In this document: positions 3,998 to 20,450 of the stretch, one piece after another | How the letters are laid out: the number at the start of each line of letters is the position of its first letter | Position numbering within the stretch: position 1 is the stretch's first letter | DNA from: Oscillospiraceae bacterium | GTDB lineage: Bacteria; Bacillota; Clostridia; UMGS1840 | Assembly: GCA_015068645.1 (NCBI GenBank) | Contig: SVKD01000001.1 | Coordinates: 1 to 64,000, forward strand | Reading direction: 5' to 3' | DNA: 64,000 nucleotides | Position numbers and translations under genes: made by a program | Notes under the pieces: model-generated | What the model was told of the DNA's origin: nothing | The model's input: only the letters and a program-made list of their open reading frames with translations | Databases searched by the model: none

Positions 3998-4003
3998 TTG
4001 ATT

Positions 4004-4798
4004 ATGGCTATGATGAACGAGTACGAAATCAAAAAAGAAATGTGTGAAGTCGGCAGAAGAATTTATATGAACGGCTTCGTTGCCGCTAACGACGGTAATA
4101 TTACAGTGAAAATTTCCGACAATGTATTTTTTGCAACTCCCACCGGTGTATCCAAGGGTTATATGACTCCTGATATGATCATCAAGGTTGACGGAGAAGG
4201 TAAAGTTCTGGAAGGAAAATTAAAACCCTCCAGCGAATTAAAAATGCATTTAAGAGTATATAAAGAAAGACCGGACGTAAGAGCAGTTGTTCACGCTCAT
4301 CCTCCCACGGCTACCGGTTTTGCTATCGCAGGTGTTCCGCTGGATAAATACACCATGCCCGAAGCAATCATTTTCTTAGGTACTGTTCCGATTGCAAAAT
4401 ACGGTACTCCTTCTACCGATGAAATTCCGGATGCAGTTTCCGAACATTTACAGAGCTACGATGCATTCTTACTGGAAAACCACGGTGCATTAACCGTTGG
4501 TAACTCCTTAATGAACGCATACTTCAAAATGGAAACCTTGGAATTCTATGCTAAGATTTCCTTAAATGCAAGATTATTAGGTGGCGAACAGGAATTAACC
4601 TGTGACCAGATTGATAAATTAATGCAGGTGAGAGCACAGTTTAAAGTACCCGGCAAACATCCCGGTTGCAAAAAATGTGAAAAGAACGGAACTCCTGAAT
4701 GTAAAGAAGCACAGAGACTGGCGAAAAAAGAAGATAACCCGGATGCAGCTCTGGTTGCAGAAATCACCCAGAAAGTTCTGGCAGCAATGGGCAAATAA
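4004..4798 (+). CDS. Class II aldolase (fuculose/rhamnulose-1-phosphate type) with C-terminal encapsulation peptide
   Basis: The ATG at 4004 lies 9 bases after GAAAAAGGGG; the upstream TTG is too close. The first 210 residues form a class II aldolase like FucA: AANDGNITVK near the start, the zinc-binding HAHPPTA, and the later ENHGALTVG. Such enzymes split L-fuculose- or L-rhamnulose-1-phosphate into DHAP and L-lactaldehyde. The protein is about 50 residues longer than FucA (215). The extra part holds a Cys cluster (CKKCEKNGTPEC) and ends in an amphipathic helix, ALVAEITQKVLAAMGK, of the kind that targets enzymes into BMCs. Aldolases with this tail are known from fucose/rhamnose BMC loci of clostridia and planctomycetes. 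As the first gene it supplies lactaldehyde, the precursor of 1,2-propanediol. Rhamnulokinase at the end of the operon favours rhamnulose-1-phosphate, but fuculose-1-phosphate is possible. Confidence 0.9.
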   Translation: MAMMNEYEIKKEMCEVGRRIYMNGFVAANDGNITVKISDNVFFATPTGVSKGYMTPDMIIKVDGEGKVLEGKLKPSSELKMHLRVYKERPDVRAVVHAHPPTATGFAIAGVPLDKYTMPEAIIFLGTVPIAKYGTPSTDEIPDAVSEHLQSYDAFLLENHGALTVGNSLMNAYFKMETLEFYAKISLNARLLGGEQELTCDQIDKLMQVRAQFKVPGKHPGCKKCEKNGTPECKEAQRLAKKEDNPDAALVAEITQKVLAAMGK

Positions 4799-4897: not shown

Positions 4898-6562
4898 ATG
4901 AAATCCAATCGATTTAAAGTGCTGGGGCAAAGACCTGTCCATCAAGATGGGTTTATGAAGGAATGGGAAGAAGTTGGCTTTGTTGCCATGGATTCCAAAT
5001 ATGATCCCAAGCCCTCTTTGAAAATCGAAAACGGTATCATCGTGGAAATGGATGGTAAACGTCGTGAAGAGTTTGACTTTATCGACAGTTTTATTGCAGA
5101 TCATGCCATTGACTTATCTGTTGCAGAAAAAGCCATGGCGATTGATAGTTTGCAGTATGCCAGAGATTTGTGCGATATCAATACCGATAATAAAGAGCTA
5201 AAAAAATTGTTCTCCGGTTTGACCGCTGCAAAGCTAAAAGAAATCATGAACCACATGAACGTGGTTGAAATGATGATGGCAATGCAGAAAATGAGAGAAA
5301 GAAAAACTCCTTCTAACCAATGTCACGTCACCAACTTAGACGATAACCCGGTGCAGATTGCCTGCGATGCCGCAGAAGCAACCTTCCGAGGCTTTGACGA
5401 AACCGAAACCACCGTAGGGATTGCCCGGTATGCACCCCTTTGCGCAGTTGGTCTTTTCATCGGATCTCAGGTTGGACGTCCCGGCGTTTTATCCCAGTGT
5501 GGGGTAGAAGAAGCTGTGGAATTGAAGCTTGGTATGAAAGGGTTTACCACCTATGCGGAAACCATTTCCGTATATGGAACCGAGAAAGTATTTATTGACG
5601 GGGACGACACCCCTTATTCTAAAGCATTTTTAGCATCTGCCTATGCTTCTCGCGGAATGAAGATGCGTTGTACCTCCGGTACAGGCTCCGAAGTTCTGAT
5701 GGGAAATGCAGAAAAGAAATCTATGCTTTATCTGGAAATCCGTTGTCTTCTGGTTATCAAGGGAGCAGGGGTACAGGGCACTCAGAATGGTGCAATCAGT
5801 TGTATCGGTATCACGGGCTCTGTGCCTTCCGGTATCCGTTGTGTGCTGGCAGAAAACTTGGTTGCTGCTCAGCTTGGTTTGGAAGTTGCTTCCGGTAATG
5901 ACCAGACCTTCTCTCACAGTGATATCAGAAGAACTGCAAGAATGTTAATGCAGATGCTTCCCGGAACTGACTTCATTTTCTCCGGATACAGCTCCATTCC
6001 CAACTATGACAATATGTTTGCAGGTGCAAACTTTGATGCGGAAGACTTTGATGATTATAATGTCCTGCAGCGTGACTTGAAAGTTGACGGCGGTCTTCGT
6101 CCTGTATCGGAAGAAGATGTCATCAAAGTTCGTATGAAAGCTGCAAAAGCAGTACAAGCAGTATTTGCTTGTTTGGGATTCCCCAAAGTAACTGACGAAC
6201 AGGTAGAACAAGCCGTTTATGCTCACGGCAGCAAAGATATTACTGCAAAACGTAATGTCAATGAAGATTTAGCCGCTGCTCAGAAATTAGTAGATGGCGA
6301 TATCACAGGTGTAGACATTGTGCAGGCACTGAACAATTCAGGCTTCCACGATGTGGCAGTATCGGTATTTAACATGTTAAAACAACGTTTATCTGCCGAC
6401 TATCTGCAAACTGCATCCATTTTAGATAAGGATTTCGGTGTATTAAGCTCCGTGAACCATCCGAACGATTACAACGGACCCGGTACCGGCTACCGTGTTT
6501 CCGGTGAACGTTGGGAAGAAATCAAAAACATTAAGGATACCTTAGATCCTACCGTTATTTAG
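4898..6562 (+). CDS. pduC: B12-dependent propanediol dehydratase large subunit PduC
   Basis: At 554 residues it has the same length as Salmonella PduC. It opens with the family-typical SNRFKVLGQRPVHQDGFMKEW and contains the TIM-barrel and adenosylcobalamin/diol-binding regions found in diol dehydratases (for example MKMRCTSGTGSE, and SGYSSIPNYDNMF). With PduD and PduE it converts 1,2-propanediol to propionaldehyde inside the microcompartment. An in-frame stop just upstream fixes the start near 4898; GGTGA six bases before it is the ribosome site. A spare AGAAAGGAAAGG further upstream has no start codon in range. It has no encapsulation peptide of its own and is probably carried in by PduD and PduE. 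A glycerol dehydratase is less likely given the Pdu context. Confidence 0.95.
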   Translation: MKSNRFKVLGQRPVHQDGFMKEWEEVGFVAMDSKYDPKPSLKIENGIIVEMDGKRREEFDFIDSFIADHAIDLSVAEKAMAIDSLQYARDLCDINTDNKELKKLFSGLTAAKLKEIMNHMNVVEMMMAMQKMRERKTPSNQCHVTNLDDNPVQIACDAAEATFRGFDETETTVGIARYAPLCAVGLFIGSQVGRPGVLSQCGVEEAVELKLGMKGFTTYAETISVYGTEKVFIDGDDTPYSKAFLASAYASRGMKMRCTSGTGSEVLMGNAEKKSMLYLEIRCLLVIKGAGVQGTQNGAISCIGITGSVPSGIRCVLAENLVAAQLGLEVASGNDQTFSHSDIRRTARMLMQMLPGTDFIFSGYSSIPNYDNMFAGANFDAEDFDDYNVLQRDLKVDGGLRPVSEEDVIKVRMKAAKAVQAVFACLGFPKVTDEQVEQAVYAHGSKDITAKRNVNEDLAAAQKLVDGDITGVDIVQALNNSGFHDVAVSVFNMLKQRLSADYLQTASILDKDFGVLSSVNHPNDYNGPGTGYRVSGERWEEIKNIKDTLDPTVI

Positions 6563-6631
6563 AAAATAAAAAGAAAGGATTAGTGCATTTTTAAGTTTTC
6601 AAAATCAAATAAAAATGTATGTGGTATCAGT

Positions 6632-7288
6632 ATGGAATATAATGAACAACTCATAAAAGAAGTTACCAGACAGGTTATGGCAGCGATTCAGAATGCGGAA
6701 GTTGTATCTGAGCAGCCGAAAACTGTTTCCAAATCAAACGGAAAACGACTGACCATCACCGAAAACGGCGATGCTCCCAAAGGAGTAAGCCCTTCCGAAG
6801 TGGTAATCGGTCTGGGTGCTTCCTTTTCCAAAGATATGTTTGAAACCATGTCAGGCGTGAGCCATTATGATTTGGTCCGTGAAATTGCGGCAGGGGTAGA
6901 AGAAGAGGGAATGACCCCCAGATTTATCCGGGTGTATCACACTTCCGACGTTGCCTTTATCGCGTTGACCGCGGCTAAATATTCCGGCTCCGGCATTGGC
7001 GTTGGGATTCAGTCCAAAGGGACCACCACCATTCATCAGAAGGATTTATTCCCGCTGACCAATCTGGAATTATTCCCTCAGGCGCCGCTCATTACTTTAG
7101 AAATTTACCGTAAAATCGGTAAAAATGCGGCAAGATATGCAAAAGGACAGTCTCCGGAACCCATCAGCGTGATGAATGATTGTATGGTACGTCCTAAATT
7201 CCAGGCGAAAGCGGCACTTTTACACATTAAGGAAACCGAAAATGTGGTAGATAAGAAACCGCCGGTCGCTTTAAACATTGAATTTTAA
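6632..7288 (+). CDS. pduD: Propanediol dehydratase medium subunit PduD
   Basis: A 218-residue protein with an N-terminal amphipathic helix, EQLIKEVTRQVMAAI (residues 5-19), of the encapsulation-peptide type, then a disordered linker and the conserved core from about residue 55 (SEVVIGLGASFSKDMFETMSG, and GIGVGIQSKGTTTIH). The medium subunit supplies part of the B12-binding site of the PduCDE dehydratase and, in Salmonella, carries the targeting signal for the complex. The ribosome site directly before the ATG is poor, while a good AAAGGA at 6574 precedes only a tiny GTG-CAT-TTT-TAA frame; translation may be coupled or lowered here. It lies 69 bases after pduC and 12 bases before pduE. Confidence 0.93.
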   Translation: MEYNEQLIKEVTRQVMAAIQNAEVVSEQPKTVSKSNGKRLTITENGDAPKGVSPSEVVIGLGASFSKDMFETMSGVSHYDLVREIAAGVEEEGMTPRFIRVYHTSDVAFIALTAAKYSGSGIGVGIQSKGTTTIHQKDLFPLTNLELFPQAPLITLEIYRKIGKNAARYAKGQSPEPISVMNDCMVRPKFQAKAALLHIKETENVVDKKPPVALNIEF

Positions 7289-7300
7289 GGGGTGACAGTG

Positions 7301-7915
7301 ATGGATGTAAATATTTCTGAAATTGTAAAAGCTGTTGCCGAAAAAATTCAGGCAGAAACAGGAAACGGTGGGATTTCAAGCTCTGAGGTCAATGAAATTC
7401 TCAAAAAGATTGAAACTCCTCAGCCGAAAAAAACAGAAAAAACTGCGGATGAAATTGCTAATGAATTGACTAAAAAAGTCCTTCAGGATATGAAAGGCGG
7501 AAACGTTTCTTCAAGTGGTGGTTACACCTATCCCTTGGCAAAAAATCATCCTGACTTATTAAAATCCAAAACCGGGAAACCTTTTTCCGAAATTACCTTT
7601 GATAATGTGATTCAGGGAAAAGTAATCCATGAGGATTTTAAAACCAATGCGGACACCTTGCTGATGCAGGCAGAAATTGCTGAAAAAGCAGGCAAAAAAC
7701 AGTTTGCAGGTAATATGAGAAGAGCTGCTGAGCTGACTCGTGTTCCCGATGAAGAAGTGTTAAGGATTTATGACAAGCTTCGTCCCAACCGTGCCACTAA
7801 GCAGGAACTCTTAGATATTGCAAATGAGCTTCGTACCAAATATCAGGCAAATATTACCGCCGATTTGGTGGAAGAAACCGCTAAGGTTTACGAAAAACGC
7901 AACATTTTATTATAA
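7301..7915 (+). CDS. pduE: Propanediol dehydratase small subunit PduE with two encapsulation-like helices
   Basis: The ATG at 7301 is chosen because AAGGGGTGA lies 5-6 bases upstream; GTG 7292 overlaps that site. The conserved small-subunit core runs from about residue 73 (YTYPLAKNHPDLLKSKTGKP) to the end (AKVYEKRN). The N-terminal extension is unusually long. It contains one amphipathic helix at residues 4-17 (ISEIVKAVAEKIQAE) and a second at about 48-63 (ADEIANELTKKVLQDMKG), separated by a Pro/Lys-rich linker. Both look like BMC targeting helices. PduE is an essential part of the dehydratase and sits between pduD and the reactivase gene in the usual order. Confidence 0.92.
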   Translation: MDVNISEIVKAVAEKIQAETGNGGISSSEVNEILKKIETPQPKKTEKTADEIANELTKKVLQDMKGGNVSSSGGYTYPLAKNHPDLLKSKTGKPFSEITFDNVIQGKVIHEDFKTNADTLLMQAEIAEKAGKKQFAGNMRRAAELTRVPDEEVLRIYDKLRPNRATKQELLDIANELRTKYQANITADLVEETAKVYEKRNILL

Positions 7916-7942: not shown

Positions 7943-9796
7943 ATGGCTAATCGTGACGTTGTTGCCGGTGTTGACATCGGAAACTCCACAACCGAAGCGG
8001 TGCTGATGAGAGTACGTGACGGCCACTGTGATTTTCTCTCCTATGCTATGATTCCCACCACAGGTGTGAAAGGAACACGAGAAAATAAAACGGGTGTGAT
8101 TGCTGCCTTAAAGCAAGGAGCAAAAGATGCAGGTTTATCGCTTTCGGAAATTGACGAAGTGCTCATTAACGAAGCAACTCCCGTTATTTCTGAATTATCC
8201 ACAGACGTGATTTCCCAGACCACCATTATTGGTTCCGTGATGATTGGGCATAATCCTGATACTCCTGGCGGTAATGGAATTGGCGTAGGGTATACTCACG
8301 ATGTAAAGTCGTTGCATCTTTGCAATAAAACTGACGATTACATCGCAGTGGTAGATGCATCTGTGGACTTTGAAGAAGCGGCAAAATTGATTAACCGTGC
8401 TTTTGATGACGGAATTTCCGTAACAGGAATTATCTGTAAAAAAGATGACGGCGTGTTGATTGCAAACCGTCTTAGTGTAACCTTACCGATTGTGGATGAG
8501 GTGATGCAGATTGAAAAAATTCCCTTTGGAAAATTGGCAGCCGTTGAAGTTGCATCCGAATCAGGCACCATCAAAGTGTTATCTAATCCTTACGGAATTG
8601 CAGGAATCTTCAAATTGACGCCGGAAGAAACCAAAAGCGTCATTCCCATTTCCAAGAGTTTAATCGGACTTCGGTCCGGCGTTGTCATCAATAATGATGA
8701 AGGCGGCGTAAAAACTCAGGAAATTCCGGTTGGTAATATTTATATTTACGGAACCGGCGGTGATTTCAGTGTTCCTGTTTCTCAGGGAGCAGATAAGATT
8801 ACAGAAACCGTTTTAAAAAGTGGCGATATTTTTGATATTGCCGGTGAAAAAAACACAAACACGGGAAACTCCTTTGAACGGATTAAACGCCGTATGGCAG
8901 ACTTAACCGGTCAAATGGCAGATTCCATTAAAATATCTGACCTTTCCGCAACCGATACCTTAGCACCGATGAAGGTGTCCGGCGGTTTGGCAAATGAATA
9001 TGCCATGGAAAGTGTAGTGATGCTTTCCTCTATGGTAAAAACCTCACATCTTCCCATGAAGCAGATTGCAGACGTGGTAACCGATGAAATCGGTGTAAAC
9101 GTTTCTATTATGGGAAAAGAGGCAGATAATGCAATTATCGGTGCATTAACAACTTCCGGTGCAGATACACCATTAGCGATTTTAGATTTGGGCGGCGGCT
9201 CTACCGATGCTGCTTTGATGGATCAACAAGGAAACATCAAAAGCGTGCATACTGCAGGGGCAGGAGAGATGGTTACCACCATCATTGATTTGGAACTTGC
9301 TTTGTCTGACCGAGACACGGCGGAACTGATTAAGAGGTACCCCTTAGCAAGGGTAGAAACCTTCAATATGCTCCGTTTTGAAGACCAGACGGTAAAATTC
9401 ACCAAGGAGCAGTTACCTCCCGAACTTTATAAAAGAGTTGTAATTCTCACCGAAGATAAAATGATTCCCATTCGGAAAAAGAATCTGACAATGGAACAGA
9501 TTACAGTAATCCGAAAGGAAGCAAAACGAAAAGTATTTGTGCAAAACGCACTGAAAGCTTTAACTAAAATCGCACCTGACGGAAACTTAAGAAACATTCA
9601 GTTTGTGGTTATGGTAGGCGGTAGTGCTTTGGATTTTGAAGTGCCCGACCTCATCAATGAGGCACTTTCCAAATATAATATTGTGGCAGGCCGGGGAAAT
9701 GTGTTAGGAAAATTCGGTCCCAGAGCCGCAGTTGCAGCTGGCCTTGTGTTAGGTCAGTATTCCAAACAGATGAGATTGGGAGGTGAGAGCGTTTGA
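7943..9796 (+). CDS. pduG: Diol dehydratase reactivase large subunit PduG (DdrA)
   Basis: A 617-residue ATPase of the DdrA family, beginning with the Hsp70/actin-like phosphate-binding strand AGVDIGNSTTEAVL and containing DLGGGSTDAALM near residue 417. It exchanges damaged cobalamin from inactive PduCDE in an ATP-dependent way. In Salmonella and Klebsiella it works with a small subunit, PduH (DdrB); no pduH-like gene follows here, and none was found elsewhere in the window. The gene has a strong AGAAAGGAG ribosome site and its stop overlaps the TTG start of pduO, so the two are translationally coupled. Confidence 0.93.
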   Translation: MANRDVVAGVDIGNSTTEAVLMRVRDGHCDFLSYAMIPTTGVKGTRENKTGVIAALKQGAKDAGLSLSEIDEVLINEATPVISELSTDVISQTTIIGSVMIGHNPDTPGGNGIGVGYTHDVKSLHLCNKTDDYIAVVDASVDFEEAAKLINRAFDDGISVTGIICKKDDGVLIANRLSVTLPIVDEVMQIEKIPFGKLAAVEVASESGTIKVLSNPYGIAGIFKLTPEETKSVIPISKSLIGLRSGVVINNDEGGVKTQEIPVGNIYIYGTGGDFSVPVSQGADKITETVLKSGDIFDIAGEKNTNTGNSFERIKRRMADLTGQMADSIKISDLSATDTLAPMKVSGGLANEYAMESVVMLSSMVKTSHLPMKQIADVVTDEIGVNVSIMGKEADNAIIGALTTSGADTPLAILDLGGGSTDAALMDQQGNIKSVHTAGAGEMVTTIIDLELALSDRDTAELIKRYPLARVETFNMLRFEDQTVKFTKEQLPPELYKRVVILTEDKMIPIRKKNLTMEQITVIRKEAKRKVFVQNALKALTKIAPDGNLRNIQFVVMVGGSALDFEVPDLINEALSKYNIVAGRGNVLGKFGPRAAVAAGLVLGQYSKQMRLGGESV

Positions 9797-10743
9797 TTTA
9801 TACCAAAAAAGGAGACGAAGGATACTCCGGAAATTTTAAAAATACCAGATATCCGAAGGATTACGTCTTATTTGATTTGCTTGGTACGATCGACGAGCTT
9901 TCATCCCACTTAGGACTTGCCAAAACCGAATCTATTGAAGTGGTTGGTGATACAATCACCGCTCTGCAAAAAGAATTCATTTTACTGATGGGTTCGATTG
10001 CAGGTAGTCAACCATTTGACACCAAGCAGGCAACTCTGCGACTGGAAAAATTGATTGATGCCTTTTCGGCAAAAATTACTCGTGATGGTAAATTCACCAT
10101 CAGCGGACAGACAAAAGGTGGTGCTCACTTAGATGTGGCACGAACCGTTGCCCGCCGAGTAGAACGAGAAGCGGTAAGAGCTTCCAAATTGTTTTTGGTG
10201 AAAAAAGAGGAGTTATCTTATTTTAACAGATTATCCGATTTGCTTTATGTGTTAGCAAGGTATCAGGATCAGCTCTATGTACCAAAGGATGAAAAAATCA
10301 TTATATATGATAAGCCAAATGATGGCACGTTCAATATGAAACTGGCAGAAAATCTTTGCCAGACGGTAATCAGTCGTGCCAGAGAAATGGGCGTTAAGGT
10401 TGTCTGTGCCGTTTGTGACGGTGGTGGAAACCTGATGGCGATGCTACGTGATGATGATGCATATATTGCAAGTATCAATGTGGCTCAGAATAAAGCATAC
10501 ACAGCAGTCAGCTTGAAAATGCCCACAGAAACATTGGCGGGACTCACCAAACCCGGTGATTCTCTCTATGGAATCCAGCATCAAGACAGCCGATTGGTAG
10601 TGTTTGGTGGGGGAATTCCTCTCATCATAAATGATGTGATCGTAGGTGGTTTTGGTGTCAGTGGCGGAAGTTTAGAACAAGATACCGCATTGGCAGCTTA
10701 CGCCAAAGAAGTTTTTCAGAACATTACGAAAGTGAATGAATAA
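9793..10743 (+). CDS. pduO: Cob(I)alamin adenosyltransferase PduO with C-terminal GlcG/HbpS-like domain
   Basis: It starts at TTG 9793, overlapping the pduG stop, after GGGAGGTGA. Residues 1 to about 170 are a PduO-type ATP:cob(I)alamin adenosyltransferase: IYTKKGDEGYSG at the start, FDLLGTIDELSSHLG, and RVEREAVRAS with YFNRLSDLLYVLAR. From about 185 a GlcG/HbpS-like (DUF336) domain follows, with CDGGGNLMAMLRDDDAY and a Gly-rich end (VFGGGIPL, GGFGVSGGS). This two-domain form is that of Salmonella PduO. It makes adenosylcobalamin for PduCDE; the second domain binds haem or flavin in relatives. Together with PduS it would recycle the cofactor within or at the shell. Confidence 0.93.
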   Translation: MIYTKKGDEGYSGNFKNTRYPKDYVLFDLLGTIDELSSHLGLAKTESIEVVGDTITALQKEFILLMGSIAGSQPFDTKQATLRLEKLIDAFSAKITRDGKFTISGQTKGGAHLDVARTVARRVEREAVRASKLFLVKKEELSYFNRLSDLLYVLARYQDQLYVPKDEKIIIYDKPNDGTFNMKLAENLCQTVISRAREMGVKVVCAVCDGGGNLMAMLRDDDAYIASINVAQNKAYTAVSLKMPTETLAGLTKPGDSLYGIQHQDSRLVVFGGGIPLIINDVIVGGFGVSGGSLEQDTALAAYAKEVFQNITKVNE

Positions 10744-10761
10744 AGAAAGGATGTGTTCAAA

Positions 10762-12207
10762 ATGAACGAACAACAGATTGCAAGCATTGTTGAACAGGTA
10801 ATTAAAGGAATGGCTGCCAAAGGTGCCGCTCCGAAAGCATCCGGTAAATATAAAGGTGTTTTCTCCACCATGGAAGAAGCATTGGAAGCAGCAAAAACAG
10901 CTTATAAACTGTTTCGTGGCTACTCTGTAGAACAGAGAGAAAACATGATTACCAAAATCAGAGAAAAAATTATGGCAGAAGCCGAAACCATGGCTAAAAT
11001 GGGCGTGGAAGAAACCGGTATGGGCAGAGTGACTGATAAAATCATCAAACACACTCTGGTTGCAGAAAAAACTCCCGGCACCGAAGATTTACAGCCTAGA
11101 GCATACAGTGGTGATACGGGCTTAACCTTAGTGGAAATGGCTCCCTTTGGATTAATCGGAAGTATCACTCCTACTACCAACCCTTCTGAAACTGTTCTTT
11201 GTAACTCCATTGGGATGTTGGCAGGCGGTAACTGTGTTGTATTTAATCCTCATCCGAGAGCAATCAACACTTCCAACTATGCGGTAGACTTAATCAACCG
11301 TGCAGTATTAGAAGCAGGTGGTCCTGAAAATGTGGTAGTATCTGTTACCAAACCTACCTTGAAAACTGCTGACGCTATGATTAAATGCCCCGACATTAAA
11401 TTGTTGGTGGCAACCGGTGGCCCCGGTGTTGTTAGAACACTGCTTTCCTCCGGTAAAAAAGCAATCGGTGCAGGTGCAGGAAACCCGCCCGTAATTGTAG
11501 ACGAAACTGCCGACATCAGAAAAGCGGCAAAAGATATCGTTGCAGGTGCAAGCTTTGATAACAATCTGCCCTGTATTGCAGAAAAAGAGTGTTTTGCTGT
11601 AGAAAGTATCAAAGACGAGCTGATTCACTATATGACTCAGAATGGTGCATACTTGCTGAAAAATAAATCCGATATTGATAAATTAGTAAATGTTGCATTA
11701 ACTGTGGAAGAATGCAAACAGGGCGAAGGATGCTCCGACAGACCGAAACGTAAATTGATGCTCAATAAAGATTGGGTTGGTAAAGATGCAAACCTGTTCT
11801 TAGAAGCAATTGGTATTACCGATGCTCCCAAAGATACCCGCCTGATCATTATGGAAACCACCGAAGATCATCCCTTTGTATCCGAAGAATTGATGATGCC
11901 GATTTTACCCATCGTGTCTGTAAAGGATGTTGACGAAGCAATCCGTTTGGGCGTGAAATACGAACACGGCAACCGTCACAGTGCTCATATGCATTCCAAA
12001 AACATTGATAACTTAACCAAATTTGCAAGAGAAGTGGAAACCACTATCTTTGTAAAAAATGCACCTTCCTATGCAGGTATCGGTGCAGGCGGTGAAGGTC
12101 ACACCACCTTTACCATCGCAGGACCCACCGGCGAAGGTATTACCTCCGCAAGAAGCTTCACCCGTCAGAGAAGATGTGTTCTGGTGGACGGCTTCAGAAT
12201 TATTTAG
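10762..12207 (+). CDS. pduP: CoA-acylating propionaldehyde dehydrogenase PduP
   Basis: The ATG at 10762 follows AGAAAGGATG with good spacing; GTG 10753 is too close. The 481-residue protein has an N-terminal targeting helix, EQQIASIVEQVIKGMAA, a short linker (APKASGKYKG), then an aldehyde dehydrogenase domain of the AdhE/EutE/PduP class. The catalytic Cys lies in FDNNLPCIAEKE near residue 272. It converts propionaldehyde, NAD and CoA to propionyl-CoA and NADH within the compartment. The product feeds PduL. The next gene begins 39 bases downstream. Confidence 0.94.
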   Translation: MNEQQIASIVEQVIKGMAAKGAAPKASGKYKGVFSTMEEALEAAKTAYKLFRGYSVEQRENMITKIREKIMAEAETMAKMGVEETGMGRVTDKIIKHTLVAEKTPGTEDLQPRAYSGDTGLTLVEMAPFGLIGSITPTTNPSETVLCNSIGMLAGGNCVVFNPHPRAINTSNYAVDLINRAVLEAGGPENVVVSVTKPTLKTADAMIKCPDIKLLVATGGPGVVRTLLSSGKKAIGAGAGNPPVIVDETADIRKAAKDIVAGASFDNNLPCIAEKECFAVESIKDELIHYMTQNGAYLLKNKSDIDKLVNVALTVEECKQGEGCSDRPKRKLMLNKDWVGKDANLFLEAIGITDAPKDTRLIIMETTEDHPFVSEELMMPILPIVSVKDVDEAIRLGVKYEHGNRHSAHMHSKNIDNLTKFAREVETTIFVKNAPSYAGIGAGGEGHTTFTIAGPTGEGITSARSFTRQRRCVLVDGFRII

Positions 12208-12246
12208 TTTAAAAATTCAGTATATATAGAAAGAGGGATCGTTAAG

Positions 12247-13470
12247 ATGGAAATGAACGAAAAAGCGATTGAATCAATCGTAAAACAAGTTTTAAACAAC
12301 TTAAACGGCGGTTCTGATTGCAGCTGTGGCGGAAATTGCACTTGCGGAAAATCTGCAGGTCCCATTCCCAAAACTGCAAAAGCCGCAATGCTCACCTCTT
12401 TGGAGCATTACGATATCAAAGAGTTTCCCATTCCTGAACTTGGTGACGACGATATCTTAGTCAAAGTAGAAGGCTGCGGTATCTGCGGAACTGACGCTCA
12501 CGAGTTCAAACGTGACCCCTTCGGCTTAATTCCCGTGGTATTAGGTCACGAAGGTACCGGCGAAATCGTGAAAATGGGTAAAAATGTGAAAAAAGACAGC
12601 GCAGGCAAAGCTTTAAACATCGGTGACAAAGTTGTTACCTGTATGATTTTTAAAGATGACCCCAACATCACTATGTTTGACTTAAACAAACAGAACGTTG
12701 GTGACGGTGCAGACGTTTACGGTTTAATTCCCGACGATGATATTCACCTGAATGGTTGGTTTGCTGACTATATGGTAATCAGAGGCGGTTCCACCGTATT
12801 CAATGTATCTGACTTAGATTTAGAAAGCAGAATCTTAATCGAGCCTGCTGCCGTTTTAATCCATGCAGTAGAACGTGCAAAAACTGTTGGTATCTTAAGA
12901 TTCAACAGCCGCGTGGTTGTTCAGGGTTGCGGACCCATCGGTTTGTTATGTATCGCAATCTTGCGTACCATGGGTGTTGAAAACATCGTTGCAGTAGACG
13001 GTGAAGAAAAGAGATTACAATTTGCAAAAGAAATGGGTGCAACTAAATCCGTTAACTTTAAAAACCATAAAGGTATTGATGAGTTAACCAACGCTGTGAA
13101 AGATGCATTCGGCGGTTACTATGCTGATTTTGCATTCCAGTGTACCGGTTCTCCCATCGCTCATTCCAATGTATATAAATTCGTAAGAAAAGGCGGCGGA
13201 CTGTGCGAACTTGGTTTCTTCATCAATGGTGGAGATGCTACTATTAACCCTCACTTCGATATTTGCGCAAAAGAACTGACTGTTGTTGGTTCCTGGGTAT
13301 ATACTTTACGCGATTATGCAACCACCTTCGATTTCTTAAAGAGAGCTCAGGGCATCGGTTTACCGATTAAAAAGCTGATTACTCACAAATATCCGCTTTC
13401 CCAGATTAATGAAGCTCATCAGACCAATCTGAAGATGGAAGGCTTAAAAATCGCCATCATCAATGAATAA
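12247..13470 (+). CDS. Encapsulated zinc-type (MDR) alcohol dehydrogenase with N-terminal Cys cluster
   Basis: The 407-residue protein starts with a BMC targeting helix (NEKAIESIVKQVLNNL), then a Cys-rich linker, CSCGGNCTCG, and a medium-chain dehydrogenase domain from about residue 45. The catalytic-zinc region is present (GCGICGTDAHEF, then LGHEGTGEIV) and so is the Rossmann motif VVQGCGPIGLLCIAI. The four closely spaced Cys of the classical structural-zinc lobe are not seen where they should be (around residues 130-160). In Pdu systems the NADH-recycling propanol dehydrogenase is usually the iron-type PduQ; here this zinc-type enzyme takes that place. With no FucO-like lactaldehyde reductase in the operon, it may also reduce lactaldehyde to 1,2-propanediol. 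Substrate is inferred from context. Confidence 0.88.
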   Translation: MEMNEKAIESIVKQVLNNLNGGSDCSCGGNCTCGKSAGPIPKTAKAAMLTSLEHYDIKEFPIPELGDDDILVKVEGCGICGTDAHEFKRDPFGLIPVVLGHEGTGEIVKMGKNVKKDSAGKALNIGDKVVTCMIFKDDPNITMFDLNKQNVGDGADVYGLIPDDDIHLNGWFADYMVIRGGSTVFNVSDLDLESRILIEPAAVLIHAVERAKTVGILRFNSRVVVQGCGPIGLLCIAILRTMGVENIVAVDGEEKRLQFAKEMGATKSVNFKNHKGIDELTNAVKDAFGGYYADFAFQCTGSPIAHSNVYKFVRKGGGLCELGFFINGGDATINPHFDICAKELTVVGSWVYTLRDYATTFDFLKRAQGIGLPIKKLITHKYPLSQINEAHQTNLKMEGLKIAIINE

Positions 13471-13503
13471 TCAGAGTGAATCTGAATATAAGGAGGATTT
13501 ACA

Positions 13504-14001
13504 ATGAATGCATTGGGAATGGTTGAGGTTTTTGGGTTCACTACCGCAATCGTTTGTGCTGATGCTGCTGCCAAAGCAGCTGCGGTAAAAATTATTGCGC
13601 TGGATACCACAAAACCTGCCAATGGCGATAGCGCGGAAGTTCCCTTGGTAATGATTGTGAAAATGGAAGGTTCCGTTTCTGCAGTAACCGCAGGTGTTGC
13701 GGCTGCAAAAGCGCAGGCAGAACAACGAGGACTCTACATTGTATCACACATCATTTCCCGTCCCGGACCGGATATTGACAAACTGGCTTATCTGTGCAAG
13801 GTGGGAAATGAACCTATCGGAAAAAAATCCGCAAAAAAAGCAGAGTCGAAAATTGAAAAAACTTCTGAAACAATCGCACCGGTTGTTTCGGAAGCAAAAG
13901 CAGAAACATCCCAACCGGTAGCAAATGCACCGAAAAAAAGAGGACGTCCTGCAAAGGCGAAACCTGCTGAAGATCCCGAACAGCAAACAATCGGGGAATA
14001 A
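13504..14001 (+). CDS. BMC-H shell protein with long AT-hook-bearing C-terminal tail
   Basis: Residues 1 to about 100 form one BMC (Pfam BMC) domain: ALGMVEVFGFTTAIVCADAA at the start, VSAVTAGVAAAKAQAE in the middle, and SRPGPDI at the end. The hexamer-forming domain is followed by a tail of about 60 residues rich in Lys, Glu, Ala and Pro and predicted to be disordered. Near its end is KKRGRPAK (residues 144-151), which matches an AT-hook core (RGRP flanked by basic residues). Extended BMC-H proteins such as PduK and EutK also carry C-terminal extensions, and EutK's is a nucleic-acid-binding-like fold, but this tail is different. The ribosome site is AAGGAGG. It is the first of four shell hexamer genes in a row. 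Confidence 0.9.
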   Translation: MNALGMVEVFGFTTAIVCADAAAKAAAVKIIALDTTKPANGDSAEVPLVMIVKMEGSVSAVTAGVAAAKAQAEQRGLYIVSHIISRPGPDIDKLAYLCKVGNEPIGKKSAKKAESKIEKTSETIAPVVSEAKAETSQPVANAPKKRGRPAKAKPAEDPEQQTIGE

Positions 14002-14053
14002 CAATTGTTAATAAAAATTATTATAAAAGGCCAAAGGCCAGGAGGATTTAAAA

Positions 14054-14332
14054 ATGAATTTTGAAGCATTAGGTATGGTTGAAACCAGAGGTTTAGTAGC
14101 TGCAATCGAAGCAGCTGATGCAATGGTAAAAGCAGCAAACGTTACCTTAGTTGGTACCGAAAAAATCGGTTCCGGTTTGGTAAGCGTTATGGTTAGAGGC
14201 GACGTTGGTGCAGTAAAAGCTGCTACCGAAGCTGGTTCTCAGGCAGCTGCTAGATTAGGCGAAATCGTTGCTGTACACGTAATTCCCAGACCCCATGGCG
14301 ACGTTGAAAAAATCTTACCCGAACTGAAGTAA
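14054..14332 (+). CDS. BMC-H shell protein (PduA/PduJ-like), copy A
   Basis: A 92-residue single-domain shell protein that forms flat hexamers. Typical features are [20 protein letters not shown], the pore-side [15 protein letters not shown], and [10 protein letters not shown] at the end. It matches the gene at 14737 at 85 of 92 residues. A small GGCCAAAGGCC hairpin abuts its AGGAGG ribosome site, and a stronger hairpin follows its stop (14362-14387); both features fit a highly expressed segment of the mRNA. It probably forms most of the shell facets together with copy B. Confidence 0.94.
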
Positions 14333-14361
14333 GATAAATCCTTGACTCTATCGAACGGATG

Positions 14362-14387
14362 TCTCTCGCTCCGTTTGGAGTGAGAGA
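14362..14387 (+). other. Intercistronic stem-loop after BMC-H copy A
   Basis: TCTCTCGCTCC pairs with GGAGTGAGAGA (one G-T pair) around a 4-base loop. No T-run follows, so it is more likely an mRNA processing or stabilising hairpin than a terminator. Confidence 0.6.
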
Positions 14388-14416
14388 TAATCCCGTAGTG
14401 AAAGGAGAACGAACAA

Positions 14417-14689
14417 ATGGAAGCAATCGGCTTATTGGAAGTGCAGGCATTAGCCGCAGCCATCGAAGGCTTAGACGCTATGTTAAAGGCCGCAAATGTA
14501 AGATTGGTTCATATTGAACGTCGTCTTGGTGGCCGTTTGGTGACTATGGTTGTTGCAGGTACTGTATCCGCTGTAACTTCTGCAGTGGAAGCCGGTCGTG
14601 TGGCGGCTGCCCGGATCGGTAATGTGAAATGTTGTGAAGTAATTGCAAGACCTCATGAAGAGGTTACCAAATTCCTCACAGATTTCTAA
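14417..14689 (+). CDS. BMC-H shell protein, divergent paralogue
   Basis: A 90-residue single BMC domain: AIGLLEVQALAAAIEGLDAM, then GRLVTMVVAGTVSAV, and RPHEEVTKFLTDF at the end. It is clearly related to the PduA/J-like pair on each side but differs in most surface and pore positions (LGGRL where the others have GSGLV), so its hexamer pore probably has different selectivity. The ribosome site is AAAGGAG. Its place between the two near-identical copies suggests insertion into, or divergence within, a duplicated array. Confidence 0.92.
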   Translation: MEAIGLLEVQALAAAIEGLDAMLKAANVRLVHIERRLGGRLVTMVVAGTVSAVTSAVEAGRVAAARIGNVKCCEVIARPHEEVTKFLTDF

Positions 14690-14736
14690 ATCCAATTTCG
14701 TAAAAAACAAAAATATAAATTATGGAGGTATTCGTA

Positions 14737-15015
14737 ATGAACTTTGAAGCTTTAGGAATGGTTGAAACCAGAGGTTTAGTAGCTGCAATCGAAGCAGCTG
14801 ATGCAATGGTAAAAGCAGCTAACGTTTCCTTAATTGGTACTGAAAAAATCGGTTCCGGTTTAGTAAGCGTTATGGTTAGAGGCGACGTTGGTGCGGTTAA
14901 ATCTGCAACCGAAGCTGGCGCTGAAGCTGCTGCAAGACTGGGCGAAATCGTTGCTGTTCACGTTATTCCGAGACCGCACGGTGATGTAGAAAAAATTCTG
15001 CCCCAGATTAAATAA
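14737..15015 (+). CDS. BMC-H shell protein (PduA/PduJ-like), copy B
   Basis: The start is ATG 14737, preceded by TGGAGGTA; the ATG at 14722 overlaps that site. The 92-residue product differs from copy A (14054) at only seven positions, mostly conservative (T31S, V33I, A56S, S62A, Q63E, E90Q, L91I). It should form the same hexamers, or mixed ones. A stem-loop follows 27 bases after the stop. The pair recalls PduA and PduJ of Salmonella, which are also near-identical. Confidence 0.94.
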
Positions 15016-15042
15016 TTGCATTTTTGAACATTGATGCAGGTG

Positions 15043-15069
15043 GTGCACGGTCTTTTTTAGGCCGTGTAC
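15043..15069 (+). other. Intercistronic stem-loop after BMC-H copy B
   Basis: GTGCACGGTC pairs with GGCCGTGTAC (ten pairs with two wobbles) around a T-rich loop. A further A/T-rich inverted repeat (AAAAAGAA with TTCTTTTT) follows before pduL. No terminal T-run is present. Partial termination or RNA processing may lower the expression of pduL and later genes relative to shell genes. Confidence 0.5.
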
Positions 15070-15180: not shown

Positions 15181-15852
15181 GTGAACATTTTGGAACGTGA
15201 AAAAATCGTTAGTGAAGTTGTAAAACAAGTGTTAGCAATGTATAAACAAAATGACAGTGCACCTGCAAACACTGCAGATGATTCCGAAATTAAGGTTGGG
15301 GTATCGCAACGTCATATCCATTTATCTCAGACTGATTTGGAAAAACTGTTTGGTAAAGGTTATGAATTAACCATGTTAAAGCCTTTGATGGGAAAAGAAT
15401 TTGCTGCAAAAGAAGTGGTTACTTTGGTTGGCAAATCCTTAAAATCCATCGAAAATGTTCGTGTTTTGGGGCCTGTTAGAAAAAATACACAGGTTGAAAT
15501 CTCCAGAACGGATACTTTTGTATTAAAAGTGAGTCCTCCGGTTCGTCCTTCCGGCGAAATCAAGGGTTCTGAACGTCTAGTTGTGGTAGGGCCGAAGGGA
15601 GCCATCTACCTGGATGAAGGCGTTATTATTGCAAACCGTCATATTCATATGACTCCGGATACCGCAAGAAAATTCGGCGTGACCGACAATTCTTTGGTAG
15701 ATGTGGAAATCGACGGTGTAAAACCCACCAGATTTTTTGATGTGCAGGTTCGGGTACGTGATGATTTCAACACCGAAATGCATATTGATACCGACGATGC
15801 AAACTCCGCAGGGTTAAAAAACGGAGACAACGTAAGAATTATTTCAAAATAG
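15181..15852 (+). CDS. pduL: Phosphate propanoyltransferase PduL
   Basis: The protein has an N-terminal targeting helix, REKIVSEVVKQVLAMY, a linker, and the two-barrel PduL core with its two zinc-binding histidine motifs: VSQRHIHLSQ near residue 43 and IIANRHIHMTPD near 150. It converts propionyl-CoA and phosphate to propionyl-phosphate and CoA, which keeps CoA inside the compartment. The start is uncertain: AGAAAGG ends only two bases before GTG 15181, so TTG 15190, three codons later, may be the true one. No propionate kinase gene (pduW) is nearby; a general acetate kinase elsewhere would finish the step. Confidence 0.94.
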   Translation: MNILEREKIVSEVVKQVLAMYKQNDSAPANTADDSEIKVGVSQRHIHLSQTDLEKLFGKGYELTMLKPLMGKEFAAKEVVTLVGKSLKSIENVRVLGPVRKNTQVEISRTDTFVLKVSPPVRPSGEIKGSERLVVVGPKGAIYLDEGVIIANRHIHMTPDTARKFGVTDNSLVDVEIDGVKPTRFFDVQVRVRDDFNTEMHIDTDDANSAGLKNGDNVRIISK

Positions 15853-15894
15853 CATACACCAAAAATTTAGTAAAAGAAAAGGGAATGTATTGTT

Positions 15895-16152
15895 ATGGTA
15901 GTAGGAAAAGTTACAGGTTCTATTTTCTCCACCCGCAAGTTAGATAGCTTAACCGGATTTAAATTGATGGTAGTTAACATTGGCAAGGGTAAGGATGATT
16001 TTGTTGTTGCCATGGATACTTTAGGTGCCGGCATTGGCGATGTGGTTTTAGTTACCTTAGGAGACAGTGCAAGATTTGCTTGCCAGAACGAAAAAACTCC
16101 CATTGATGCAGTAATCGTGGGAATTGTTGACCAATCTAATTATAATCTGTAA
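15895..16152 (+). CDS. pduN: BMC-P pentameric vertex protein (PduN/EutN/CcmL family)
   Basis: The 85-residue protein has the EutN/CcmL pattern: MVVGKVTGSIFSTRK at the start, LMVVNIGKG, then ALGAGIGDVV-like sequence (TLGAGIGDVVLVTLGDSA) and DAVIVGIVD at the end. Pentamers of this family close the twelve vertices of the shell. It is the only BMC-P gene in the operon. The ribosome site is AAAGGGAATG. It lies between pduL and pduS, with 42 bases on the left. Confidence 0.93.
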   Translation: MVVGKVTGSIFSTRKLDSLTGFKLMVVNIGKGKDDFVVAMDTLGAGIGDVVLVTLGDSARFACQNEKTPIDAVIVGIVDQSNYNL

Positions 16153-16204
16153 TTCGTTTTCAAAAAGCGTTTAATTGCGCTTCATAGAAGGAATTGAACT
16201 TAAG

Positions 16205-17518
16205 ATGCAAACCTTAAAAAATTTGATACAAAAAGCCGGCGTGGTTGGTGCCGGTGGAGCTGGGTTTCCCACTCACGTAAAATTGGCTGACAATATTGAA
16301 ACCATTTTAATTAATGGAACAGAATGCGAGCCTCTTTTAAAAACTGACTTTTATTTGCTGTGTGAAGAACGGGAACGATTAGAATCCGCTTTAGCCACAT
16401 TGATTGAAAAAACGGGTGCCAAAAATGGTGTAATTGGGATCAAAAAACACACAGCCGAATTACTTGGTATGAAAGAAGAAGTTACCCACGGTAATATTTC
16501 TTACCGTTTTACCGGGGATATTTATCCTTCCGGCGATGAAGTGGTATTGATTCAGGAAACTTTGGGAAAAACTGTACCGGCAGGACGTCTTCCCATTTCA
16601 GTTGGCGTTGTGGTTATGAATGTGGAAACACTTTATAATGTTGCCAATGCATTGGAAGAAACTCCTGTTACGCATAAGTATTTAACTGTTGGCGGAAAAA
16701 CCGACAAAACTTATGTAATAAAAGTTCCTGTGGGAACACCTGTTTCTCATATTTTTGAGAGCTTGAAGATTGAAGTTCCCCAAAATTGTACTGTGTTGGA
16801 TGGCGGCCCTATGATGGGGAGTATCGTGAATCCTAACACAGCAATTGTTACCAAGACAACGAAAAGTTTACTCATTATTGATGATCACACGCTTTGTATC
16901 CGTTTAAAAACCAGAAGCTTGGCTGATGCACTAAACCGTTCTTCCGGAAATTGTTGCGGATGCAGAATGTGTACCGATATGTGTCCCAGATATTTAATGG
17001 GATATCCCATTGAACCTCATAAAATTGTGCAGAGGTTATCTGCCAAAGCAACTGACACAAAAACCTTTATGGGAGCATTTTATTGCTCCAATTGCGGTGT
17101 TTGTCAGACCATTGCTTGTCCGCAGAATATTAGTCCCAACCGTTTGTTTGCACGGGTGAAAGCAGAACTTTTAAAAAACGGTGTGAAACCTGTGATGGCT
17201 GAAGAATCCAAGCCGGTTGCAGAACGGATATATCGCAGAGTTCCCTCCAAACGTTTGGTAAACAGGTTGGGTGTTTTAAAATATTATCGTGACGAATATG
17301 AATTCGTTACAATTCCTGAACCCAAACAGGTAACTATTCCCTTAAAAATGCACATTGGTGCTCCCGGGGAAGCGATTGTAAAAGCGGGAGATAGCGTAGC
17401 AGTTGGTCAGTTAATTATTAAACCCAAGGAAAATGCACTGGGTGCAAATATTCACAGTTCTGTGAACGGCACCGTATTTTCTGTAAGTGAATCCAGTATT
17501 GTGATTACCGTTTCTTAA
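16205..17518 (+). CDS. pduS: PduS: RnfC-like flavin/iron-sulfur cobalamin reductase
   Basis: The ATG at 16205 follows AGAAGGAA; a TTG 30 bases earlier has no good site. The 437-residue protein resembles PduS of Salmonella: the N-terminal Rnf/Nqo Gly-rich loop GVVGAGGAGFPTHVKL, then the flavin-binding and SLBB region, then two 4Fe-4S clusters (CCGCRMCTDMCP near residue 250 and CSNCGVCQTIACP near 294), and a C-terminal barrel-sandwich domain (PLKMHIGAPGEAIVKAGD). PduS reduces cobalamin for PduO and can pass electrons through the shell protein PduT, encoded next. The source of electrons is probably NADH. Confidence 0.93.
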   Translation: MQTLKNLIQKAGVVGAGGAGFPTHVKLADNIETILINGTECEPLLKTDFYLLCEERERLESALATLIEKTGAKNGVIGIKKHTAELLGMKEEVTHGNISYRFTGDIYPSGDEVVLIQETLGKTVPAGRLPISVGVVVMNVETLYNVANALEETPVTHKYLTVGGKTDKTYVIKVPVGTPVSHIFESLKIEVPQNCTVLDGGPMMGSIVNPNTAIVTKTTKSLLIIDDHTLCIRLKTRSLADALNRSSGNCCGCRMCTDMCPRYLMGYPIEPHKIVQRLSAKATDTKTFMGAFYCSNCGVCQTIACPQNISPNRLFARVKAELLKNGVKPVMAEESKPVAERIYRRVPSKRLVNRLGVLKYYRDEYEFVTIPEPKQVTIPLKMHIGAPGEAIVKAGDSVAVGQLIIKPKENALGANIHSSVNGTVFSVSESSIVITVS

Positions 17519-17550: not shown

Positions 17551-18099
17551 ATGATGGTATCCATTGGAATTATTGAAGTGAGTAACATTGCAAAAGGTTA
17601 CTTCATTTGCGACAATATTTTGAAGAAAACACAAGTTTCTATGGTAATGGCACAGCCTATCTGCCCCGGTAAGTTTGTGATGATTTTTGGCGGAAGTGTG
17701 TCTTCTGTGCACTTGGCTTGTGAATACGCACAGGAAAATTTTGCCGATAAAATTTTAGATATTTCTGAATTTGGTAATATTGATGTTCGTGTATTTGATG
17801 CATTGAATGGTGCAGCAAGTGGTGAAACAAACGGTGCACTCGGCATTATCGAAACATTTTCCGTTGCATCTTGTATTTTGGCTGCGGATGCTGCCTTAAA
17901 AGCTGCTGCTGTGGAAATTTGTGAACTTCGCGTTGCAAGAGGGATGGGCGGTAAATCCTATGTGGCTTTGTCCGGAACTGTTGCAGCAGTAACTGCAGGT
18001 GTTGAAGCAGGAGCACAATCTGCCATTGATAACGGTGTGCTCAATGATACTGTTGTAATTGCATCTCCTCACGAGGATTTGTGGCAATATTTGCAATAA
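17551..18099 (+). CDS. pduT: PduT: tandem-BMC trimeric shell protein with central iron-sulfur site
   Basis: The 182-residue protein has two BMC domains: SIGIIEVSNIAKGYFICDNI at the start and ALGIIETFSVASCILAADAA from about residue 96. Such proteins form pseudohexameric trimers. Cys38 in PICPGKFVMIF matches the position of the Cys that binds a 4Fe-4S cluster at the three-fold axis of Salmonella PduT. It probably carries electrons across the shell to or from PduS, whose gene lies 32 bases upstream. It is the only BMC-T gene here; there is no PduB. Confidence 0.93.
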   Translation: MMVSIGIIEVSNIAKGYFICDNILKKTQVSMVMAQPICPGKFVMIFGGSVSSVHLACEYAQENFADKILDISEFGNIDVRVFDALNGAASGETNGALGIIETFSVASCILAADAALKAAAVEICELRVARGMGGKSYVALSGTVAAVTAGVEAGAQSAIDNGVLNDTVVIASPHEDLWQYLQ

Positions 18100-18111
18100 G
18101 AATTTTGAAAT

Positions 18112-18152: not shown

Positions 18153-18189
18153 TTATCATAAACTATTTGTGAGATACGGAGGTGTTCTT

Positions 18190-18948
18190 TTGTTTGCATT
18201 AGAACGAAGAAAACGCATCTTAGAACTTTTGAATCAAAACGGCAGTGTTTTGGTAAATGATCTGGCACGTGATTTGGAGGTTACAGTAGAAACAATCCGT
18301 CGTGACTTGGAAAAATTAGAGCAGATGGAGCAGTTGACTCGTACTCATGGGGGAGCAGTTCCGTATGAAGAAGCCACACTGGATTTATCATTGGAAAAAC
18401 GCCGAGGTTTAAATATTGAAGGGAAAATTGCTATTGCAAAAAAAGCGGTAAATCATATTCGTCCCGGCGATACTATTTTTTTGGACGGTTCCACTACGTC
18501 TTATTACTTATCCAAACAGTTAAAAGATATGAAAAATATCACAGTAATCACCAATAACCTTCAGATTTTAGAAGAATTATCCAACTGCGAAAAAATCAAA
18601 GTAATTTCTACCGGTGGTGTACTGGATGTGAATAACCAGTCTTTTGTTGGTGAGGTTGCCGTGGATAATATCAATAAAAACTTTTGTGCCAACAAAATGT
18701 TTTTCAGCAGTAAAGGGATGACCATGGAGCAGGGTGTTTTAGAATCCAATGACGTGGAATTTCAGATTAAACGGGCAATGCTTAATAATGCTATGAATAA
18801 ATTCTTGCTGTTGGATAAATCCAAATTTGAAAAAGTTGGTTTCATTAAGCTCAGCAATTTTTCAGAAATTGATATGTTATTTACCGATGAAGAATTATCT
18901 GATGATTGGAAAAAAGTATTTAAAAAACATAAAGTGACCGTAGAATAA
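18190..18948 (+). CDS. DeoR-family transcriptional regulator of the BMC operon
   Basis: It starts at TTG 18190, six bases after ACGGAGGTG. The 252-residue protein has an N-terminal winged helix-turn-helix of the DeoR type (RRKRILELLNQNGSVLVNDLA, then TVETIRRDLEKLEQ, and THGGAV) and a C-terminal sugar-phosphate sensor domain (FLDGSTTSYYLSKQL, VITNNLQILEEL, STGGVLD). DeoR regulators usually repress until a phosphorylated sugar binds. Lying between the BMC genes and rhaB, it is likely to sense rhamnulose-1-phosphate, lactaldehyde or a related intermediate and act at the promoter at 3931. The ligand is inferred. Confidence 0.9.
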   Translation: MFALERRKRILELLNQNGSVLVNDLARDLEVTVETIRRDLEKLEQMEQLTRTHGGAVPYEEATLDLSLEKRRGLNIEGKIAIAKKAVNHIRPGDTIFLDGSTTSYYLSKQLKDMKNITVITNNLQILEELSNCEKIKVISTGGVLDVNNQSFVGEVAVDNINKNFCANKMFFSSKGMTMEQGVLESNDVEFQIKRAMLNNAMNKFLLLDKSKFEKVGFIKLSNFSEIDMLFTDEELSDDWKKVFKKHKVTVE

Positions 18949-18980
18949 ATTGTAAAAATAAACAATAGGAGGAATTTGCT

Positions 18981-20450
18981 ATGAGTAAAAATGTGTTAGC
19001 ATTCGATTTTGGTGCTTCTAGCGGAAGAGCCATTATCGGTAGCTATGATGACAATAAAATTTCACTAAAAGAAGTACACCGTTTCCCAAATGATCCCGTT
19101 TATGTTGGCGGAACCTTGTATTGGGACGTACTCCGTTTGCTGTTTGAAATCAAACAGGGGATTTTAGCAGCACATCATAACGGCGGTTTTGACAGCATCG
19201 GTATTGATACCTGGGGTGTTGATTTCGGTTTAATCGATAAAGACGGAAGACTTTTGGAAAATCCTGTTCACTATCGTGATTCCAGAACCGACACCATTAT
19301 GGAAGAAGTATTCCAGATTGTTCCTAAAGAAGAAATTTATCAGAAAACCGGAACTCAGTTTATGAATTTCAATACTATCTTCCAGCTGTATTATTTAGCA
19401 AAATACAGAAAAGATTTATTGGATCGTGCAGACTGTTTCTTATTGTTCCCTGATTTATTGGCATACTTTTTAACCGGTGAAAAGACCGTGGAATATACCC
19501 ACGCTTCCACCACTCAGCTGATCAATGCCGAAACCAGAGAATGGGATTTTGATTTGATTGATAAGTTGGGTATTCCCAGACGTTTATTCCCGCAAATTGT
19601 TAAACCGGGCACCCAAAAAGGAATGCTTTCCAAAGAAATTTGCGATGAATTGGGTGTACCTTCTGTACCTGTTTGTGCAGTAGGCTCCCACGATACCGCT
19701 TCTGCAGTTATGGCAGTTCCTTCTGAAAAAGAAGATTTCATTTATATCAGTTGTGGTACTTGGTCCTTATTTGGTACCGAATCAAAACAGCCTTATATCA
19801 ATGAAAAATCTCAGAAATATAATTTGACCAATGAAGGCGGATACAACGATACCATCCGTTTCTTAAAAAATATTATGGGTCTATGGCTCATTCAGGAATC
19901 CAGACGTCAGTGGATTCGGGAAGGTTTTGCCGTAACTTATGGAGACTTAGAAAAAGAAGCGTTGGCAGAAGAAGCATTCAAATGCTTTATTGATTCTGAT
20001 TATCCTAAATTCGGTAAACCCGGTAACCTGCCTCAGTATATCAAAGATTACTGCAAAGATACCAACCAGTATGTTCCTGAAAGACGCGGGGAAGTAATGC
20101 GTTGTATCTATGAAAGCTTAGCATTAAAATATCGTTATGCGTTTGAAAATATTCAGGATGTTACCGGCAAAAAATATGAAGTAATTCATATTGTTGGTGG
20201 CGGTACCAAAGATAATCTGCTTTGCCAAATGACCGCAAATTCCTGTGGCGTTGATGTTGTAGCAGGTCCTATCGAAGCAACTGCATTGGGGAATGTGGCA
20301 GCACAGTTGATTGCAGGTGGTGATATCAAAGATTTAAAAGAAGCACGTCAGATTATCAAAAATTCTGAAACTACCACAACATATTCTCCCAAAGATGTGA
20401 AAGTTTGGGAAAAAGCATATCAGGAATTTTTAAAATTAGATATTCATTAA
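18981..20450 (+). CDS. rhaB: L-rhamnulokinase RhaB
   Basis: A 489-residue FGGY-family sugar kinase of the expected length. The start, VLAFDFGASSGRAIIGSY, and EVHRFPNDPVYVGGTLYWDV are typical of RhaB; IDTWGVDFGLID, SHDTASAVMAVP and the late VGGGTKDNLLCQMTANS are also conserved. It phosphorylates L-rhamnulose to rhamnulose-1-phosphate, the substrate of the aldolase at 4004. The gene has GGAGGAATTTGCT upstream of ATG and ends at a strong terminator. The isomerase (RhaA) and a transporter needed before it are not in this window. Confidence 0.93.
   Translation: MSKNVLAFDFGASSGRAIIGSYDDNKISLKEVHRFPNDPVYVGGTLYWDVLRLLFEIKQGILAAHHNGGFDSIGIDTWGVDFGLIDKDGRLLENPVHYRDSRTDTIMEEVFQIVPKEEIYQKTGTQFMNFNTIFQLYYLAKYRKDLLDRADCFLLFPDLLAYFLTGEKTVEYTHASTTQLINAETREWDFDLIDKLGIPRRLFPQIVKPGTQKGMLSKEICDELGVPSVPVCAVGSHDTASAVMAVPSEKEDFIYISCGTWSLFGTESKQPYINEKSQKYNLTNEGGYNDTIRFLKNIMGLWLIQESRRQWIREGFAVTYGDLEKEALAEEAFKCFIDSDYPKFGKPGNLPQYIKDYCKDTNQYVPERRGEVMRCIYESLALKYRYAFENIQDVTGKKYEVIHIVGGGTKDNLLCQMTANSCGVDVVAGPIEATALGNVAAQLIAGGDIKDLKEARQIIKNSETTTTYSPKDVKVWEKAYQEFLKLDIH

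Follow-up and report, generated by a model that had tools for sequence, protein, structure and literature searches.

A 64,000-nucleotide stretch from an Oscillospiraceae bacterium (contig SVKD01000001.1, positions 1 to 64,000; hereafter the window) encodes a bacterial microcompartment (BMC) shell protein of the BMC-H type (13504-14001), whose disordered C-terminal tail carries an AT-hook-like motif that is invariant at its core within the genus and recurs on other BMC-H proteins. We give roughly even odds to the reading that this tailed protein is a minor BMC-H subunit anchoring a B12-dependent diol-dehydratase metabolosome to the nucleoid, for which we infer an outward orientation, DNA binding, low abundance and a role in positioning. 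What an initial annotation had observed in this gene was confirmed, and its interpretation was partly supported.

The window protein is a BMC-H protein with a single BMC domain and the BMC-H fold. AlphaFold2 (AF2) modelled the core (residues 1-95) with a predicted local distance difference test score (pLDDT) of 82-98 over most of its length, mostly above 90, the pore-side loop being the exception, and the nearest folds were CcmK/EutM-type BMC-H hexamers (Foldseek, E about 1e-7). That loop (DTTKPANGDSAEVP, window 13600-13647) is longer in K-type proteins, this one included, than in PduA/EutM and had lower model confidence; it may affect pore size. A disordered tail of about 60 residues with KKRGRPAK at 144-151 had been described from the letters alone; the tail comprises residues 101-165, with no predicted secondary structure and pLDDT 51-69, and the motif position was exact. 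The gene had also been counted as the fourth BMC-H. It is one of four in the operon but the first in operon order. The RGRP core lies in the basic, proline-containing setting by which an AT-hook is recognized. The upstream AAGGAGG is kept in four of the five congeneric species and is GAGGAGG in the fifth. Matches of the tail to the ELYS AT-hook (E 8.3, non-significant) and of the protein to antibody chains in the PDB (phmmer; artefacts of composition) were rejected.

Conservation was assessed in five closely related species, which make up one genus and the whole family in the collection, and all five have the tailed BMC-H. Their tails align as a variable linker, APKKRGR, PAKA or KPKA, a short spacer and P-x-QQ[KT]IGE. 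The linkers vary in length and sequence and APKKRGR is invariant, with codons that differ synonymously among the species (AGA/CGA/CGG, GGA/GGC and CGT/CGC/AGA), which argues for selection at the protein level. RGRP or RGRKP was observed in all five tails compared to 0.003 expected when each tail was shuffled, and was present within the last 70 residues of only 3 of 1887 other open reading frames (ORFs; at least 220 aa, in BMC loci). Since the five species are close, this conservation shows constraint rather than deep age. The terminal peptide P-x-QQ[KT]IGE, beyond the hook, was also kept in all five.

Hook-like tails (the initial annotation proposed to look for RGRP in other BMC-H proteins) were found to have arisen independently on a paralogue in another family (f12) and on a Faecalispora BMC-H. 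In f12, operons of this kind encode a different BMC-H whose terminus is RRRGRPKK, RRRGRKPK or KRGRPKK, and the placement is reciprocal: the f12 K-type protein is tailless, as is the window orthologue of the f12 carrier (14417-14689). The window carrier and the f12 carriers fell in separate clades of a BMC-domain tree; a single clade for the window-genus and f12 carriers was rejected at a cost of 78 log-likelihood units (approximately unbiased test, p 1e-7), and at least four changes of the hook label were forced by well-supported branches. The Faecalispora protein, which groups with PduK, has a long acidic tail that ends in two hook-like repeats (KKGRPAKSPGRPAK). The tree is built from few columns and contains some long branches, which makes fine placement uncertain, but the main clades are separated with good support. 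On these sequence comparisons, hook tails on BMC-H proteins have arisen independently more than once. Loci with and without a hook could not be told apart by GC content, and tblastn against plasmids gave no match.

Two kinds of candidate tailed orthologue were rejected. The protein of G038 matched through residue 160 and has an acidic tail with a PduK-like Cys motif, and orthologues of about 217 aa proved to be fusions of two BMC domains. Such tandems of a K-type BMC-H and a second BMC-H domain are present in several families (L040, L042-L045, L050 and L053). The G038 locus (L055, minus strand) encodes a PduK-like BMC-H; its linker is acidic, and its terminal Cys motif, CNLCLDPECPRHKGEPRVECIHF, resembles E. 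coli PduK.

Extensions of other classes were detected on further BMC-H proteins. One set has a long disordered, often acidic linker followed by a 40-residue helical SAP/Rho_N-like domain and occurs in many Clostridia families and in Brevibacillus (L134, L136, L138, L140, L141, L241-L246, L250, L251, L255-L257 and L259). Pfam matched Rho_N in 13 of 18 (best E 6.9e-10) and SAP in 8 of 18 (best 1.2e-5), with tails examined one by one falling under curated cutoffs. The SAP and Rho_N families bind nucleic acids. Another design is a Lys-rich N-terminal arm on PduA/J-type BMC-H. In all 36 distinct cases, the end of the arm is a strong Shine-Dalgarno sequence (AAGGAGG) before a second ATG at the usual BMC-H start, so these genes likely yield two products, one long and one short, like the pair PduB and PduB'. 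A common MAxKKT-type start and open frames argue that the arms are translated; some may be untranslated. Loci with an arm and an internal Shine-Dalgarno sequence include L081, L093, L159-L161, L164, L169-L173, L179, L187, L194 and L210.

The number of extensions per locus was compared among 114 non-redundant loci, each having four or more BMC-domain ORFs, using thresholds set by hand. In 76 loci, one and only one BMC-H had an extension that was basic or of a nucleic-acid-binding type (35 N-terminal Lys-rich, 15 C-terminal hook, 15 SAP/Rho_N-like and 11 C-terminal basic), and no locus had two. Sister organelles thus bear this or another DNA-binding-type tail on differing shell proteins, a single one in each organelle operon, which suggests that a dedicated anchor subunit holds them on the chromosome. 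Extension classes follow lineages, so the one-per-locus result is a pattern and not a test of independence. With somewhat less confidence than for the window protein, we propose that metabolosome loci may each have one dedicated anchor, a BMC-H whose nucleic-acid-binding extension can be of several interchangeable kinds (an AT-hook, a SAP/Rho_N-like domain, a winged helix, or a Lys-rich arm perhaps from a second translation start). The extension would have moved between paralogues and termini, at most one per locus, and would position compartments through direct, multivalent contacts with the nucleoid, with no ParA-type motor involved.

In the window protein, the BMC domain would join the shell and up to six flexible tails per hexamer would exit on the concave, cytosol-facing side, where the hook would enter the AT-rich minor groove as in HMGA, H-NS and Lsr2. 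A lone hook contact would be weak and short-lived, and many hooks per shell would together hold the nucleoid firmly but exchangeably, which would spread compartments along the cell, prevent polar clustering and share them between daughters. In H-NS and Lsr2, RGR motifs insert into the minor groove of AT-rich DNA (PMC4466236). Compartments become polar when PduK is deleted in Salmonella (PMC9132943), and Eut compartments do so when EutK is deleted (PMC12487888). The PduK extension was assigned to the concave, outward face, and PduK is dispensable for shell integrity, core formation and encapsulation. By analogy, the nucleoid tethering suggested in the initial annotation would fit these deletion phenotypes and the outward PduK extension, and the window protein probably works like PduK and EutK.

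As judged from its sequence, the window protein is neither of these. It shares with PduK the extended BMC-H, but PduK has a Cys-rich, possibly Fe-S terminus without a hook (CNLCLDPACQ...C in E. coli), whereas the window tail has no Cys, and in the tree PduK groups with the Faecalispora protein while the window protein lies in another BMC-H clade, with long branches. Like EutK, it combines a BMC-H with a C-terminal positively charged, possibly nucleic-acid-binding module; as the initial annotation recognized, the EutK module differs, being a folded winged-helix-type C-domain rather than a short linear motif within a disordered C-terminus. No winged-helix-type domain (PF16365) was found in the window tail, which is unstructured and has AT_hook as its sole Pfam match. 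EutK was the best NCBIfam match (BMC part only, 35.7 bits vs. a cutoff of 218) and the nearest reference row in the tree, subject to a long-branch warning. AT-hook proteins (HMGA, those with Lsr2/H-NS type RGR motifs, and CarD) share the RGRP core with flanking K/P; here, in contrast, six copies per hexamer would be shown on a shell, and the Pfam match is under its cutoff. We know of no AT-hook protein that is a shell protein. McdAB-positioned carboxysomes are spread on the nucleoid, as proposed here for the metabolosome, but through a ParA-type ATPase and an adaptor; no ParA/McdA-like gene was seen by inspection in the window BMC operon.

Nucleic-acid binding by a BMC-H tail was already proposed for EutK, in a study whose authors suggested that its C-domain may connect to nucleic acids. 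Apparently new are the linear form of the hook, its repeated and independent emergence, the class with SAP/Rho_N-like domains, and the pattern of no more than one extension per locus. The view that no BMC-H had been described with an AT-hook still stands, as no paper joining "bacterial microcompartment" and "AT-hook" was found; nor was any linking BMC with SAP or Rho domains, in a search outside which most subscription journals lay. A 2025 review names PduK and expects further positioning strategies to be found. The question addressed is how non-carboxysome metabolosomes are placed and inherited. With a hook this short and mutable, present on a single shell protein, a two-residue change suffices to test the direct-tether model. 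A single BMC-H per locus with a hook or SAP/Rho_N-like module would allow the anchor subunit to be recognized by rule in many BMC loci, and either module would offer a means of positioning engineered compartments on DNA.

Several observations weigh against the nucleoid-anchor reading. The motif had been called a canonical AT-hook, which holds for its RGRP core and flanking K/P; its Pfam AT_hook (PF02178) score of 13.0 bits (E 0.099) is under the 17.4 cutoff, so that the motif taken alone is suggestive and not diagnostic. A lack of conservation in orthologues was named in the initial annotation as a possible refutation; the motif is conserved within the genus but not beyond it. Elsewhere in the class the K-type orthologue is short and tailless or fused to a second BMC domain, and it is another paralogue that is tailed. 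The BMC core is likewise nearly invariant in the five species, as expected of close relatives. Thirty-eight of the 114 loci were scored as having no such extension, including at least one (L110) with an N-terminal arm visible by eye. The outward orientation of the window tail is extrapolated from other BMC-H structures and papers, and its DNA binding is predicted. RGRP is kept in only about half of the f12 tails, the others being merely Lys/Arg-rich, and the Lys-rich N-terminal arms have no hook; generic cationic binding to any polyanion could thus be the common trait.

The main rival, which we regard as unlikely although it has a real share of the probability, builds on this last point: the tail would be a generic Lys/Arg-rich polycation that binds polyanions (RNA, ribosomes, nucleoid or polyphosphate), with the hook core incidental. 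The abundance of Lys-rich extensions without RGRP in the survey and the excess of Lys over Arg in the window tail are consistent with it. However, the only two arginines of that tail sit in RGR, the net charge of the whole tail stretch is only +4, and RGRP/RGRKP, the part of the tail that does not vary, is far over the shuffled expectation. Distinctly less probable is an RNA tether, in which the tail would hold compartments at their site of synthesis by binding RNA, possibly the long mRNA of the operon. Some AT-hooks bind RNA, and the Rho_N-type domains on other BMC-H tails come from a family with an RNA-binding role in Rho, but nothing specific to RNA or the operon was found, and SAP and the EutK winged-helix-type module indicate DNA as much as RNA.

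We consider it slightly less probable again that the tail points inward, as a lumenal scaffold that binds acidic cargo surfaces or organizes the enzyme core. The PduB N-terminus does link shell and cargo, and tail orientation in the window protein is predicted by analogy; yet the concave face, where the PduK extension lies, faces outward, the window tail has no predicted helix, and the core forms and is filled without PduK. That the tail is a functionless, low-complexity product of drift with a chance motif is very improbable. Absence of the tail from orthologues outside the genus would suit drift, which was already disfavoured by the invariant motif with its synonymous changes, the independent origins and the one-per-locus pattern.

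The tailed gene belongs to a metabolosome operon of the B12-dependent diol dehydratase type that spans 3998-20450 of the window.

Table. Coordinates of the tailed BMC-H gene, its parts and the surrounding operon genes in the window.
Feature	Position	Strand	Evidence
BMC-H shell protein gene, 165 aa, K-type paralogue, long pore-loop insertion (DTTKPANGDSAEVP)	13504..14001	+	ORF, PF00936, AF2 model, Foldseek
Ribosome-binding site AAGGAGG, directly upstream of tailed BMC-H gene	13490..13496	+	
BMC domain PF00936, residues 3-87, E 6.9e-18	13510..13764	+	Pfam
Disordered C-terminal tail, residues 101-165 (65 residues)	13804..13998	+	Predicted: no secondary structure, pLDDT 51-69
AT-hook-like motif APKKRGRPAK, residues 142-151	13927..13956	+	Sequence, conservation
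C-terminal peptide PEQQTIGE	13975..13998	+	Conserved in five species
Class II aldolase, deoxy-sugar phosphate aldolase type	3998..4798	+	
Coenzyme-B12 diol dehydratase, large, medium and small subunits	4898..7915	+	
Diol dehydratase reactivase large subunit	7943..9796	+	
PduO-type cobalamin adenosyltransferase	9793..10743	+	
CoA-acylating aldehyde dehydrogenase (PduP-like) and zinc alcohol dehydrogenase	10753..13470	+	
BMC-H, PduA/J type, without extension	14054..14332	+	
BMC-H, tailless; same clade as f12 carriers of RRRGRPKK-type tails	14417..14689	+	
BMC-H, PduA/J type, without Lys-rich extension	14722..15015	+	
Phosphate propanoyltransferase PduL	15181..15852	+	
BMC-P vertex protein (EutN_CcmL)	15895..16152	+	
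PduS/RnfC-like electron carrier	16175..17518	+	
BMC-T shell protein, PduT-like	17551..18099	+	
DeoR regulator and FGGY sugar kinase (rhamnulokinase-like)	18169..20450	+	

The kinase and aldolase genes point to a deoxy sugar of the fucose/rhamnose type as the putative operon substrate. By inspection, the cargo enzymes of the operon have their own N-terminal helical encapsulation-like peptides, suggesting that the BMC-H tail is not required for their loading.
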